60,555 bases of DNA, taken from a virus. Each line of letters begins with the position of its first letter. Position 1 is the stretch's first letter. The notes below the pieces were generated by a model, which made no database searches, was not told the DNA's origin, and saw nothing but the letters and a program-made list of their open reading frames with translations. The stretch lies in IMG/VR virus record IMGVR_UViG_3300002835_000195, positions 1 through 60,555 of that record. The stretch is one strand, 5' to 3'. Shown one piece after another: positions 4,010 to 8,841 of this stretch. A program made the translations under genes and the position numbers.

Positions 4010-6139
4010 TTATAGTGTGCTGCGTTCCATGTTTTTTAGAGTGGCTTCGCTGTTGCGAACTCGCAGATCGTCGTTGTAATTATTTACAACAGTATTGCTT
4101 TGGTTGTACATGGTAGCCGCTGCCGCTCTTTGTTGATTTGCAAACTGTGCTTGTGCTTTTGCTTGGTTTTCTGCATACGCACGAACTTCTTCTGTTCCTC
4201 TTCTGTTTATTTCCATAGCGTTAGCCTGTTGTCCAACTGGAGTTGAAGCAGTTGAAGCAGGAGCAACAGAACCAGTTGTTTGTTCAGGAGTTGTTGCTGT
4301 TGGTGTTCCGCCTTCAACTTTAATCAAATCACCGACAGCAGGAATGGAAGACACAAAATCGTATATTCCTTTAGGTCCAATCAATTCTGCAATTTGATTT
4401 CCTACCCATTCTCCTCCCATAGCACCAGCGACTCCTCCAAGAACGGTTCCAACTGGACCTATGGCAGTTCCTAATCCGCCTCCTATTATTCCTCCAATTG
4501 CGGCACCAAATCTTTTAGATATTTCTGCACCAATTGCTTGCTTTTTCTCTTCTGGTCCAAGAGACGGGTCGTTTTTTATGCTGTATATATTGAAAGCACC
4601 AATTATTCCCTCAAGTGCAGCAGTGATTGGGCCGAGGGATTTCATTCCACCCAAAATTTTACCCATATTGGATTTTAGAAATGCTCCTGGATTTGCAACC
4701 GCTTCTGCTATTGCTGCTGCTTCGGTTGCAACAGATTTGCCTGCTTGTACTACTGCACTTCCAGCAGACTTTGCACCTTCCAATCCTTTAGACGCTAGAT
4801 TTTTTGTGCCTTCCCATGCACTGCTCCACCATGATTTGCTTTTTGATGCTGTTTCAGCAGCACTCTCTGCACCAAAACCAAGCATAGATTTGGTGCCTTG
4901 CCATGCTTTTGAAGCCATGCCTTTTGTGCCTTGCCATGCCTTTTTTAGACCCAAATCTGTTGCTTTGTCTGATGCCCAATCTGTTACGGTGGACAGCATT
5001 CCAGGTTGCCCCTCTGCTCCTGCTCCTCCACCCATTCCAAACATTCCGCCCATCATGCCCAAGAGTCCGCCACCACCAAGCAAACCAGAAAGAGTTTTTC
5101 CAAGACCCCCAAATAGCCCTTTTTGTTTTTCATCCGCTTTAGCAGCGTTAGTCATATTTTTTATGGCTGCTTCTTTTTGTTTAAGTGATTCTGTTCCTGA
5201 CTTTTTACCAACTATTCCTTCTTTGATGACTCGCACATCAGCAGCAATTTGTCCAAGCACTCCAACATCACCACCTGCCATGCCTGCTAATCGTCCACCT
5301 GCGGCTCCACCAAACACACTACCTACTGTTCTTGCTCCTGGGAATGGAGGAGTTGGTGCTCCTGCAATACCTCCACCCATTCCTCTGCCCATCAGGATTC
5401 GTTCCAGTTCGTTTTGCTTTCGTCCTGCTTGAGAAATACTTTCGACTCTGCGTCCAGCAAACGCTTCTAGTTCTTCTCGCCCTGCTCGTTTTTCTGCCAT
5501 ATAGTCGCCAAGTAGTCCTCCAACAAGAGGAATCTGACGAACGATGGCTTCTGGAGCAGCCTTTAATTTTGATACCATTCTTTCTTTGGCGAATGCAGCA
5601 AATCCAGTTTTCTTTTGCAATACATCTTCAACTGGTTTTATGATTTCTGCTATCTTTTTTGTAATATCAGATTTTTCTCCAGTTGTCTTTTCAGCAGTTT
5701 CTCGTATGAATTTTAGTTTGTTGTATATGTCTAATTGTTCTCTTCGGTCTTTTGAGCGAACTGCTTGTTCAGATAGAGACAGAGCAGATTCAATAACTGC
5801 AAAGTTTGCTGCGTTATTTGGGTCGTCTAGGTCTTGAAGCCTCCCTCTTTCACTTCTAACCAGTTCTTCAATTTGGGCACGAACACCTTTTGCACCGCCT
5901 TTGCCCAATACAGCCATAGACAGTTCGGTGTCTCCACCAGATAGTTCACGCTGTTGTTCTAATAGTGCTTCAAGTAGACCAATTTTTGAGTCAACTTCTG
6001 TGTATTCTTTTTCCACTTCTGGTGGAAGCGGTATTTCAGGTGCAGCAGGCGCAGACGGTGATGCTTTGGTGGGAGCAAACCGTCCACCTACTCGTGGAAC
6101 TGCCCCTCGCCTACCCCTACCTGGACCTTTTTTTGCCAT
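4010..6139 (-). CDS. Probable tail tape-measure protein
   Basis: This 709-aa protein has the architecture of a tape measure, which sets tail length and is held in the tube lumen. The N-terminus is very basic (MAKKGPGRGRRGAVPR), followed by predicted helix and coiled coil to about residue 210. Around residues 395-450 there are tryptophan-bearing repeats (KAWQGTKGMAS, KAWQGTKSMLG, SAWEGTKNLAS), two of them exactly 11 residues apart, a spacing known from tape measures. A Gly/Ala-rich hydrophobic stretch (about 545-600) could act on membranes. T4 gp29 has about 590 aa, so the tail would be slightly longer. The gene begins directly after the stop of the -1 frameshift extension of gp26, the position of a tape measure behind its tail-assembly chaperones. 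Direct sequence similarity to gp29 is not evident. Confidence 0.72.
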   Translation of the reverse strand: MAKKGPGRGRRGAVPRVGGRFAPTKASPSAPAAPEIPLPPEVEKEYTEVDSKIGLLEALLEQQRELSGGDTELSMAVLGKGGAKGVRAQIEELVRSERGRLQDLDDPNNAANFAVIESALSLSEQAVRSKDRREQLDIYNKLKFIRETAEKTTGEKSDITKKIAEIIKPVEDVLQKKTGFAAFAKERMVSKLKAAPEAIVRQIPLVGGLLGDYMAEKRAGREELEAFAGRRVESISQAGRKQNELERILMGRGMGGGIAGAPTPPFPGARTVGSVFGGAAGGRLAGMAGGDVGVLGQIAADVRVIKEGIVGKKSGTESLKQKEAAIKNMTNAAKADEKQKGLFGGLGKTLSGLLGGGGLLGMMGGMFGMGGGAGAEGQPGMLSTVTDWASDKATDLGLKKAWQGTKGMASKAWQGTKSMLGFGAESAAETASKSKSWWSSAWEGTKNLASKGLEGAKSAGSAVVQAGKSVATEAAAIAEAVANPGAFLKSNMGKILGGMKSLGPITAALEGIIGAFNIYSIKNDPSLGPEEKKQAIGAEISKRFGAAIGGIIGGGLGTAIGPVGTVLGGVAGAMGGEWVGNQIAELIGPKGIYDFVSSIPAVGDLIKVEGGTPTATTPEQTTGSVAPASTASTPVGQQANAMEINRRGTEEVRAYAENQAKAQAQFANQQRAAAATMYNQSNTVVNNYNDDLRVRNSEATLKNMERSTL

Positions 6140-7032
6140 TTACTGATGCCCTTGCCGCTTGGCTCGTTCTTTCTCTTCTTTCAAGAATTGGATCAATAAA
6201 TTTATGTATACTTCACGCTCCCAAGGTATGAGAGACTCTACTTCAGCCAAAGAGTATTTGTGGTGCTGTATTAGTGAAAAATTGGTGTTGTAATACGCTG
6301 CCAGTGTGTTGTGGCAGACCGTTATTGAAAAAAATCGGAAACAGACTTTACCTCCGTTTCCACCAATTTCTTGCACGACGGACAAGTGTATTTGAAGCCG
6401 TATACTAGTTCTGGGGTGGTTTTCACAAATTTCATAATCTGCTCAAATTGCTCGGGTAGCAAGTTGTCCACGAAGTCTGCTAGTTCTTTGGGATCAATGT
6501 CGTCTTTACCGTACACATTGTCACCAAAAATTACGCTCTCTATACAGTCTTTTGCTATTCCAAAAATTGCATCAATTTCACTCTTGCTGTAGTCTACATC
6601 GTGCATGGACGGATACCGCAGCACCAATGATATCTGATCGTTGATTTTTACGGTGGAGTCTACGCTTTCCTTTTCAACTTTCTTAACTTTGACTTCTTGT
6701 AGATTGATTCGTATTCCAGTTTTTGTTTGGCAGGTAGAGCAAGCAATCTGTGGTTTTACTTCTTCACCAACAGACTTCATGCGAATCTGTAGGAATGCGT
6801 ATTCTGCGTCTGCTGTGCACAATTTCTTGGTGTCTAGCAGTCCGTTGGTGCAAGCAGAAATTATGTTACGCATAGCATCTACGATCTGGTTCATGTCACC
6901 AGATTGTGCAGCAATTAGAAGCACCTTTTCTTCTTTGACTAGAAAGGGTCTATACTTTGCTACTATGCCAGATATTGGCAGAGTCATTGTATAAGACGGC
7001 AATTGCGAAGAGGTCAGTTTCAGTTTTTCCAT
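6140..7032 (-). CDS. Predicted -1 frameshift fusion: gp26 plus 62-residue C-terminal extension (tail-assembly chaperone, long form)
   Basis: If ribosomes slip back one base on seven T (6334 to 6328), gp26 residues 1-235 continue into the -1 frame for 62 residues to a stop at 6140-6142, giving a 297-aa protein. The added part contains KYSLAEVESLIPWEREVYIN and ends in a charged helix (FLKEEKERAKRQ). That resembles the charged helical extensions of long-form tail chaperones such as lambda gpGT. The -1 frame has no ATG: its only upstream start is a TTG at 6385 inside gp26 without a convincing ribosome-binding site. This argues that the segment is expressed by frameshifting. The tape measure starts at the next base, 6139. 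The genetic layout is seen in the sequence; the frameshifting itself is inference from known systems. Confidence 0.7.
6298..6334 (-). promoter_or_regulatory. Programmed -1 ribosomal frameshift signal
   Basis: The minus strand reads GAT TTT TTT CAA TAA at the end of gp26. The T-TTT-TTT heptamer (6334 to 6328) lets both tRNA-Phe re-pair after a -1 slip. One codon later comes the zero-frame stop. Ten bases beyond the heptamer a hairpin forms, CTGCCA (6317 to 6312) pairing with TGGCAG (6303 to 6298) around an 8-base loop, a plausible stimulator. Confidence 0.75.
6322..7032 (-). CDS. gp26: Baseplate hub / tail assembly protein gp26
   Basis: This 236-aa protein of the T4 gp26 family contains the recognisable block YRPFLVKEEKVLLIAAQSGD (residues 27-46) and FLQIRMKSVGEEV (80-92). 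Two CxxC pairs, C98/C101 and C217/C220, suggest a zinc ribbon. T4 gp26 acts in baseplate hub assembly. A TTG five codons upstream would extend the frame, but ATG 7032 has GGAG seven bases before it. TATAGATA at 7063-7070 may be its late promoter. The gene ends with seven T and a stop, and the following -1 frame carries an extension, so this is probably the short form of a two-product tail chaperone serving the tape measure downstream. Confidence 0.85.
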   Translation of the reverse strand: MEKLKLTSSQLPSYTMTLPISGIVAKYRPFLVKEEKVLLIAAQSGDMNQIVDAMRNIISACTNGLLDTKKLCTADAEYAFLQIRMKSVGEEVKPQIACSTCQTKTGIRINLQEVKVKKVEKESVDSTVKINDQISLVLRYPSMHDVDYSKSEIDAIFGIAKDCIESVIFGDNVYGKDDIDPKELADFVDNLLPEQFEQIMKFVKTTPELVYGFKYTCPSCKKLVETEVKSVSDFFQ

Positions 7033-7062
7033 GCTATCTCCGTTCAAATAAAGAGTGTATAG

Positions 7063-7070
7063 TATCTATA
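7063..7070 (-). promoter_or_regulatory. Candidate late promoter (TATAGATA) for gp26
   Basis: TATAGATA on the minus strand differs from the T4 late octamer TATAAATA at one base. It ends 30 bases before the gp26 ATG, the same distance as the identical octamer before gp48. Confidence 0.42.
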
Positions 7071-7808
7071 TTACTGCTGTCCGTTTATTACTCCATTAAC
7101 GGTTCCGTCGCTGCCGTAGCGATTTATTCTCCCTGTTTTGGGATTTACTGCGAATGCTGTTTGTCTTGGTTGTGGCGATGGAAGAATCTGCTGCGGTAGG
7201 TTTAGTCCAAACGGAGAAACTTGTTGTTGTGCAGCAGAAGGAGTAGTTGACGGCGGATTTGGTAGAAGTGTAACAGCGGGTGTGTATTTTCTATACGCAA
7301 GCACAATGTCTTGTGTAAGTATTTCGTTGTCTTTTTCGTATCCAAGCATGAGTTCTCCTATTTGCTTTGGATACATTTCTTCAATTACTGCGGAATACAC
7401 CACTTGATCGCTTTTGTCTAAAACATTGATTACTCCATCTGTGATGTATTCGTCATAAAATGCGAACTTATAGTTGAAAGGATTGCAGATAAAGTTTAAC
7501 CACTCTTCAAAAAATGCTCGTTCTTTTAGATCGCCCGATAGTATGTACGAAAGCGTCAAGTCTCCAGAGTATAGAGGTTCGGTTGGAAACTGTCTTTGTG
7601 GTCCGTAGAACCTGTAGTTTTGTGTGGTGAGTGATCTTCCAGGAACAGAAGCAGAAGTGCACCGTAGAGTTAGTTGCTTTTGTGATGCTGGACGATATCC
7701 AAATATTGCGGGTGTGTTTAACACCATTTCAAAACGGTTGGCGTATATCAGGCTGTCCCGATATATTTCGCCCATCATTTCATTAATATTGGATGGAATG
7801 TATGTCAT
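7071..7808 (-). CDS. Tail-tube-like baseplate protein (gp19/gp54-type)
   Basis: The 245-aa protein has the look of the T4 gp19/gp54 tube-fold family: an N-terminal strand (YANRFEMVLNTPAIFGYR), a loop of the kind CTSASVPGRSLTT, then PLYSGDLTLSYILSGDLKERAFFEEWLNFIC, the central strand-helix unit seen in tail-tube and tube-initiator proteins. The last 70 residues are Pro/Gln-rich and likely disordered. The ATG overlaps the stop of the preceding gene (ATGA), so translation is coupled. Within a hub and tape-measure operon a tube initiator such as gp54 is the most likely role, but gp19 paralogues are hard to tell apart without a profile search. Confidence 0.6.
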   Translation of the reverse strand: MTYIPSNINEMMGEIYRDSLIYANRFEMVLNTPAIFGYRPASQKQLTLRCTSASVPGRSLTTQNYRFYGPQRQFPTEPLYSGDLTLSYILSGDLKERAFFEEWLNFICNPFNYKFAFYDEYITDGVINVLDKSDQVVYSAVIEEMYPKQIGELMLGYEKDNEILTQDIVLAYRKYTPAVTLLPNPPSTTPSAAQQQVSPFGLNLPQQILPSPQPRQTAFAVNPKTGRINRYGSDGTVNGVINGQQ

Positions 7809-8401
7809 GGAGTGTTTCCCGAACGAACATATGAGTTGTATGCCATACGACGAACGCCCATCTTTCGCCCCTTCACGAACAGGGCAAGGTCAACATCCAC
7901 CAACACATCCCAAAATTCCATAGGAATCTGTATGGGTCGCCTACGAAGTCCACCTATTACATAGCGTCGGTAGCAGGGCTTGAAAAAACCAAATTTTCGT
8001 GATCCGTTTAGTCGGTCGTATGAAACTCCCAAACGGGTAAGAGACTCGTCACCGCTTCTACGCATTGGTAAATTTGTTTCTATGGCACCGAACAATTGCC
8101 GTCTCCATTTTTGGGCAACATAGTGCAGATTCAGTCCTTCAAACCCGTCTTTGTGTACTTTGGTTACGATTACTAGTGGAAACACATCGTAGGCTTTAGA
8201 TGAATTTAAAAATCTGTCGTCTTGTGGTTTATATTTAAAAAATACCATCTGCCCTGCCATGAGCCGTGACGGAGTGCGTAGTTCTCCAATGGTATTCAAA
8301 TACTTCAGTAATTGCAGATACGATTGGTCTGTGCCACCAAGACCAGCAATAGTCTCTTCTAGTAGGGCTTTTAGTTCTTTTGGTTGTTGCGGGGTTATCA
8401 T
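7805..8401 (-). CDS. Conserved T4-like protein of unknown function next to gp4
   Basis: The protein has 198 aa. The readable segments VFFKYKPQDDR, YDVFPLVIVTKVHKDGFEGLNLHYVAQKWRR and FKPCYRRYVIGGLRRRPIQIPMEFWDVLVDVDLALF recall a small protein found beside morphogenesis genes in other T4-like marine phages. I cannot attach a proven function. It is rich in Arg and Lys with hydrophobic strands and could be a DNA- or baseplate-associated structural protein. It overlaps both neighbours by 4 bp (ATGA at each junction), so it is translated together with gp4 and the tube-like protein. T4 gene 2 (DNA end protector) lies near gene 4 in T4 and is one candidate, not supported by any motif I can name. Confidence 0.55.
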   Translation of the reverse strand: MITPQQPKELKALLEETIAGLGGTDQSYLQLLKYLNTIGELRTPSRLMAGQMVFFKYKPQDDRFLNSSKAYDVFPLVIVTKVHKDGFEGLNLHYVAQKWRRQLFGAIETNLPMRRSGDESLTRLGVSYDRLNGSRKFGFFKPCYRRYVIGGLRRRPIQIPMEFWDVLVDVDLALFVKGRKMGVRRMAYNSYVRSGNTP

Positions 8402-8841
8402 GTCTTGTGTCTAAACAGATCGTCTTCGGTAAGCACTCGGAACTCCCAACCACGAGACTCCGCAGCAGTTTTAGCCGCTGCCCATTTAGCCTTGTTGGTG
8501 ATCCATGTTTGGGCTTCATACAGGTAATTGCGGCTACGCTTTTTTGGTTTCTTTGGTTCCTGTGTCTGTTTTTTTGGTTTTACTTCAATCAGCATGGTTT
8601 TTACCCCACCATCGGTAGTACGCATCTCCACGATAAAATCCACAAAGTAGCGGTGCGGTTTTCGGTCAAGTGGGCTGATATATGGTATCACCACCTCTTC
8701 TGACCCCCATCGCAGCACAGTTTCGCTCAGGTCACAGAATTTCATAAACCGCCGTTCCCACATAGAACGGTACACTATTTGGGTGGGGTTGCCCATGTAT
8801 TTGGATGGGTTGGTTGGGCTAAAATATCCTTTGTAGGGCAT
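8398..8841 (-). CDS. gp4: Head completion nuclease gp4
   Basis: This 147-aa protein is similar to T4 gp4 (gp50/4 head completion). It shows the TnsA/endonuclease-like pattern: GNPTQIVYRSMWERRFMKF (residues about 16-34) with the conserved Glu in SMWE, then HRYFVDFIVEM with the catalytic-type Asp, then LIEVKPKKQT, the E-x-K of restriction-endonuclease folds. The C-terminus YEAQTWITNKAKWAAAKTAA and GWEFRVLTEDDL completes the family profile. In T4 it acts after DNA packaging so that the head can join the neck. It heads the minus-strand operon, divergent from gp48 with only 36 bp between them. No clear Shine-Dalgarno precedes the ATG. Confidence 0.88.
   Translation of the reverse strand: MPYKGYFSPTNPSKYMGNPTQIVYRSMWERRFMKFCDLSETVLRWGSEEVVIPYISPLDRKPHRYFVDFIVEMRTTDGGVKTMLIEVKPKKQTQEPKKPKKRSRNYLYEAQTWITNKAKWAAAKTAAESRGWEFRVLTEDDLFRHKT

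Follow-up and report, generated by a model that had tools for sequence, protein, structure and literature searches.

A -1 frameshift site predicted to join gp26 to a gp51-like domain at the tail assembly chaperone locus of a T4-like phage

The window, by which we mean the whole stretch of DNA analyzed here, is a linear IMG/VR virus record of 60,555 bases, and the locus described below is read on its minus strand. Both the coordinates and a match to PHROG 167 place this locus immediately before the tape measure gene, as in chaperones of the lambda G/GT type. It comprises the following features.

4010..6139, minus strand: tape measure protein, 709 aa, whose ATG directly follows the stop of the extension (weak PHROG 167 match, and position)
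6140..6328, minus strand: -1 extension of 62 codons and a TAA, lacking an ATG; gp51-like C-terminal domain, TAC-C (PHROG 634; conservation in the -1 frame only)
6298..6317, minus strand: hairpin CTGCCA-8 nt-TGGCAG, a possible frameshift stimulator (sequence, folding)
6322..7032, minus strand: gp26, 236 aa, the putative short chaperone form, TAC-N (PF12322, PHROG 150)
6328..6334, minus strand: slippery heptamer T TTT TTT, separated from the gp26 stop by a single sense codon, CAA (sequence, homologues)
6351..6355, minus strand: GGAGG, a candidate Shine-Dalgarno-like element 16 nt upstream of the heptamer (sequence)

The geometry described in the original prediction is borne out by direct reading of the sequence. 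The gene for gp26 ends GAT TTT TTT CAA TAA, with the heptamer at 6334-6328 and the TAA at 6324-6322, and a CTGCCA/TGGCAG hairpin with an 8-base loop (6317-6298) begins exactly 10 bases past the heptamer. The -1 frame, whose first codon shares the last base of the heptamer (6328), stays open for 62 codons without an ATG; its TAA ends at 6140 and the tape measure ATG starts at 6139. The translation of the extension, 62 residues long, is SITVCHNTLAAYYNTNFSLIQHHKYSLAEVESLIPWEREVYINLLIQFLKEEKERAKRQGHQ.

Profile matches assign both halves of the locus to known families of T4-like phages. The gp26 protein is a member of Pfam family PF12322, T4_baseplate (E = 6.4e-58), and matches PHROG 150, "baseplate hub" (E = 6.3e-59). 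The extension is no orphan sequence, a point absent from the original prediction; it is a homologue of gp51, matching PHROG 634, "baseplate hub assembly catalyst," with an E value of 5.5e-27. The match of the downstream protein to PHROG 167, tail length tape measure, is weak (E = 1.2e-5) and agrees with its position. The predicted structure of gp26 is confident (pLDDT 93). A search of the PDB with this fold returned no match with E < 0.001; the two with the highest probabilities among the 50 matches listed, the HK97 tail assembly chaperone 2ob9 (probability 0.33, E = 2.1) and 3fgx (probability 0.30), are nonsignificant. A profile sequence search of the PDB with gp26 likewise gave nothing meaningful, and among viral structure models the matches were gp26-type proteins.

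Our comparison set comprised 147 gp26 loci, drawn from IMG/VR as well as annotated phages and selected by gp26 similarity, with the T run playing no part in their choice; Vibrio phage K355 and Aeromonas phage Ah1 stand outside these statistics and are listed apart. The sample is diverse: most loci encode a gp26 33 to 60% identical to that of the window, and the nearest annotated phages reach about 35%. An in-frame T TTT TTN lies at the end of gp26 in 147 of 147 loci (88 in a first set and 59 in a later one), 0 to 3 codons before the stop except in 7 loci where gp26 runs 8 codons further. Other long open reading frames at these loci contain the motif in frame 33 times in 72,157 codons, a rate of 0.46 per 1,000, so the T run at the gp26 terminus is far beyond chance, and its predicted conservation in related T4-like genomes, together with that of the -1 frame, is upheld.

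Among the 131 nonredundant loci the heptamer is TTTTTTC in 71, TTTTTTT in 50, TTTTTTA in 9, and TTTTTTG in 1. The codon that precedes the two Phe codons is GAT, AGT, AAT, TCT, GCT, TTT, GGT, or CAT, ending in T in 131 of 131. Under gp26 codon usage, and with shared ancestry ignored, a T-ending codon at this place in 83 of 83 nonredundant loci has a probability of ~1e-19; TTT serves as the first Phe codon in all 131 (~1e-20, a figure that also ignores shared ancestry and so overstates the evidence). We could thus rule out that the T run merely reflects a conserved FF dipeptide, because neither the first Phe codon nor the third base just before it varies, although synonymous changes were available at both.

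The extension itself evolves as a protein in the -1 frame. No ATG, GTG, or TTG is present within its first 13 codons in 51 of the 131 loci, and across these start-less loci the -1 frame is free of stops and shows an amino acid identity of 0.54, synonymous changes making up 40% of the codon differences. Identity falls to 0.25 in the 0 frame (8% synonymous, 29 stops) and to 0.33 in the +1 frame (14% synonymous, 83 stops). When the extension is read in the -1 frame, variation is highest at the third position of its codons. Judged by these sequence comparisons, a conventional start cannot account for the -1 conservation of the extension in the 51 start-less loci.

We regard it as nearly certain that the window is from a T4-like (Kyanoviridae-related) myovirus and carries its tail assembly chaperone locus, in which a -1 slip on the heptamer would make a gp26-gp51 fusion, because the heptamer is present in all 147 homologues and the start-less extension is conserved as protein in the -1 frame only. 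The central proposal of the original prediction, a programmed -1 frameshift joining gp26 to the extension in the lambda G/GT/tape measure layout, is thereby sustained. Most ribosomes would complete gp26 (TAC-N), while a fraction would shift back by one base at T TTT TTT, the two Phe tRNAs re-pairing, and read 62 more codons to yield gp26-gp51 (TAC-NC). If the two products act as lambda gpG and gpGT do, each would associate with the tape measure protein, the longer one would recruit tail tube subunits, and both would depart before the tail is completed. The slip site, the start-less -1 coding of the extension, and its gp51 homology are established by comparison among homologues; we infer the slip in cells, its efficiency, its stimulators, and the chaperone role.

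Three observations run against the -1 reading: K355 lacks the heptamer, some homologues have an ATG in the extension, and the matches of the gp26 fold to solved chaperones are nonsignificant. The first two would suit a scheme in which ribosomes terminate on gp26 and reinitiate at a gp51 start codon overlapping the gp26 stop, so that gp51 is made on its own and the T run is incidental. In 31 of 131 loci the first six extension codons do include an ATG, often as part of TAATG or TGATG, and K355 has an overlapping ATG without a heptamer. The original prediction had counted homologues with such an ATG as evidence against itself; these exist, yet every ATG-bearing locus of the main set keeps the heptamer. 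The window, moreover, has ATA ACG at the junction and no ATG, and the first 13 extension codons of the 51 loci devoid there of ATG, GTG, and TTG are still conserved as protein in the -1 frame. Cultured relatives whose junction is also free of ATG include P-TIM40 and Mosig. We therefore consider reinitiation as the general explanation very improbable, although free gp51 may also be made in this way in the 31 ATG-bearing loci.

Slippage of the polymerase rather than the ribosome on the T run is another possible source of the frame change, and the seven-T run of the window speaks for it. Most nonredundant homologues, however, have only six T, which is short for polymerase slippage, and the register always suits tandem tRNA slippage on X XXY YYZ, so we hold a transcriptional origin to be more improbable still. 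The least credible possibility, with a negligible probability in our estimation, is that the -1 open reading frame arose from chance overlap, misassembly, or gene decay. Its shortness is the sole point in favor of this; the layout is the same in a second contig (L011), whose gp26 is 99% identical to that of the window, and is shared by the other homologues, and the conservation of the extension as protein already contradicts such a reading.

Upstream of the heptamer, predicted pairing with the anti-Shine-Dalgarno sequence peaks for 8-mers that start 14 to 15 nt before it, which puts GGAGG about 10 nt away in most relatives. The best pairing energy is -5 kcal/mol or lower in 76% of loci, compared with 10.5% of controls. 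Part of this segment encodes a conserved Leu-Glu-Gly, and its codon choice is skewed: Glu is GAG in 62 of 80 cases versus 26% elsewhere (Fisher P = 2e-21), and the Leu codon ends in G in 50 of 98 versus 27% elsewhere (P = 8e-7), both probabilities with shared ancestry still in. Because GAG and G-ending Leu codons are enriched, the Shine-Dalgarno-like signal is more than an amino acid effect. A role in initiating gp51 is unlikely, since the strength of the element is independent of a nearby ATG (P = 0.24) and the element is also too distant from it.

Downstream, the 40 nt after the heptamer fold modestly more stably than controls over all loci (mean z of -0.93). In the clade to which the window belongs, Shine-Dalgarno-like pairing is weak at the usual spacing and the downstream folding is stronger than in the others (median of -12.1 versus -5.9 kcal/mol), a comparison confounded by GC content (0.45 versus 0.36). 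Members of this clade fold at the same place in different registers, and in-register covariation of the hairpin among them is negligible (consensus energy of -0.52 kcal/mol); given both results, we do not claim a conserved base-paired structure. No trade-off between Shine-Dalgarno strength and downstream folding appears over all loci (Spearman coefficient of 0.0005, n = 130), and the window clade alone departs in the balance between them. We tentatively suggest a composite signal of the dnaX type, in which a GGAGG about 10 nt upstream would stimulate the slip in most lineages and the window clade would largely have swapped it for a stronger hairpin; to this model we give somewhat less than an even chance. 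The Shine-Dalgarno-like element bears on what may fix the proportion of short to long chaperone. It is also the sole part of the locus for which we found no earlier description, in a literature search that covered Vladimirov et al. 2022 through papers citing it.

T4 itself is arranged otherwise. Its gp51 (249 aa) spans positions 13 to 280 of the 282 in PHROG 150 and also matches PHROG 634, being a gp26-like protein fused to a gp51 domain in a single frame, whereas T4 gp26 covers only positions 14 to 235 of PHROG 150 and lacks the gp51 domain. Genes 26 and 51 lie on opposite strands in T4, and the short and long forms thus appear, from sequence, to be encoded there as two genes. Aeromonas phage 31, like T4, has two separate genes. 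Vladimirov and coworkers in 2022 are said to have found frameshifting apparently conserved in several T4-like groups, with T4 using genes 26 and 51. Our comparisons support a picture in which frameshifting would be widespread in the T4-like superfamily and T4 and Aeromonas phage 31 would instead rely on two genes.

The two phages set apart from our statistics differ from each other. In Vibrio phage K355 (L010, 3560-3600), gp26 ends TCA CTT TTC AAG TAA TGG, with no T TTT TTN and with an ATG overlapping the stop; this lineage may have replaced frameshifting by reinitiation. In Aeromonas phage Ah1 (L151, 3214-3400), the end reads GAT TTT TTC GAC TGA and is followed by an unannotated -1 extension. 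Annotation is uneven more generally: cyanophage records usually give gp26 and gp51 as two separate genes, and gp51 is unannotated in Ah1 and in Synechococcus phage ACG-2014e. The locus is therefore annotated inconsistently in deposited T4-like genomes, with gp51 separate, often truncated, or missing, and its coding layout is now settled.

The original prediction held that a frameshift was undescribed for the T4 gp26 family. This does not stand, as frameshifting was already reported for T4-like phages by Vladimirov et al. 2022, according to papers that cite it (PMC10274946, PMC12846349). Vladimirov, Gautam, and Davidson (Virology 2022) are cited there for identifying the TAC genes of T4-like phages; some of these phages are stated to encode the short form and the long fusion in two different genes (PMC10274946, citing Vladimirov et al. 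2022), and poly-T runs are given as known -1 signals in their TAC-N genes (PMC12846349, citing the same study). A 2016 review had still treated T4 as an exception to the conserved G-T frameshift (PMC5009743). Since T4-like TAC frameshifting is thus cited, the window locus is a further case of a described kind. It has in common with T4-like gp26/gp51 the protein families, the T-rich -1 site at the TAC-N end, and the gp51-type C-terminal domain; it differs in being a new lineage, with the usual Shine-Dalgarno-like element displaced and the downstream folding stronger, and, from T4, in being one frameshifted locus rather than two separate genes.

Other known systems resemble the locus in part. 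The -1 signal of Escherichia coli dnaX consists of an upstream Shine-Dalgarno-like element, a slippery heptamer, and a downstream hairpin (PMC3711429), an arrangement to which the signal of most relatives is similar; the heptamer here is T TTT TTN and not the A-rich dnaX site, the gene is unrelated, and the Shine-Dalgarno-like spacing in the window is longer. At the TAC locus of Vandenendeviridae and Andersonviridae, the -1 frame is open in all genomes and a T-rich slip site is conserved (PMC12846349); these are other phage families with a GTTTTT motif, and the likeness lies in the -1 frame and the T-rich site. In lambda, too, a short form (gpG) and a longer -1 frameshift product (gpGT) are encoded immediately ahead of the tape measure gene, although we detected no sequence relation to them in this analysis. 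The lambda slip sequence differs from T TTT TTN.

Elsewhere in the window, a minus-strand block covers 4010-8841, and the remainder (8878-60386) is on the plus strand, where a T4-like structural module encodes baseplate wedge, head closure, tail sheath, portal, and major head proteins. The gp4-like head closure protein at 8398-8841 on the minus strand (PHROG 218) also matches PF08722, a TnsA-like endonuclease N-terminal domain (E = 1.4e-23). A 578-aa protein at 875-2611 on the minus strand, with repeated Gly/Thr/Val motifs and no PHROG match, is possibly a virion surface or fiber protein. The end of the contig (1-374) is a perfect tandem array of a 30-base unit in 12.5 copies with 100% matches, which may be the reason that the assembly ends there; in frame on the plus strand, one possible coding strand, it reads as a repeated VRVELELVLV.
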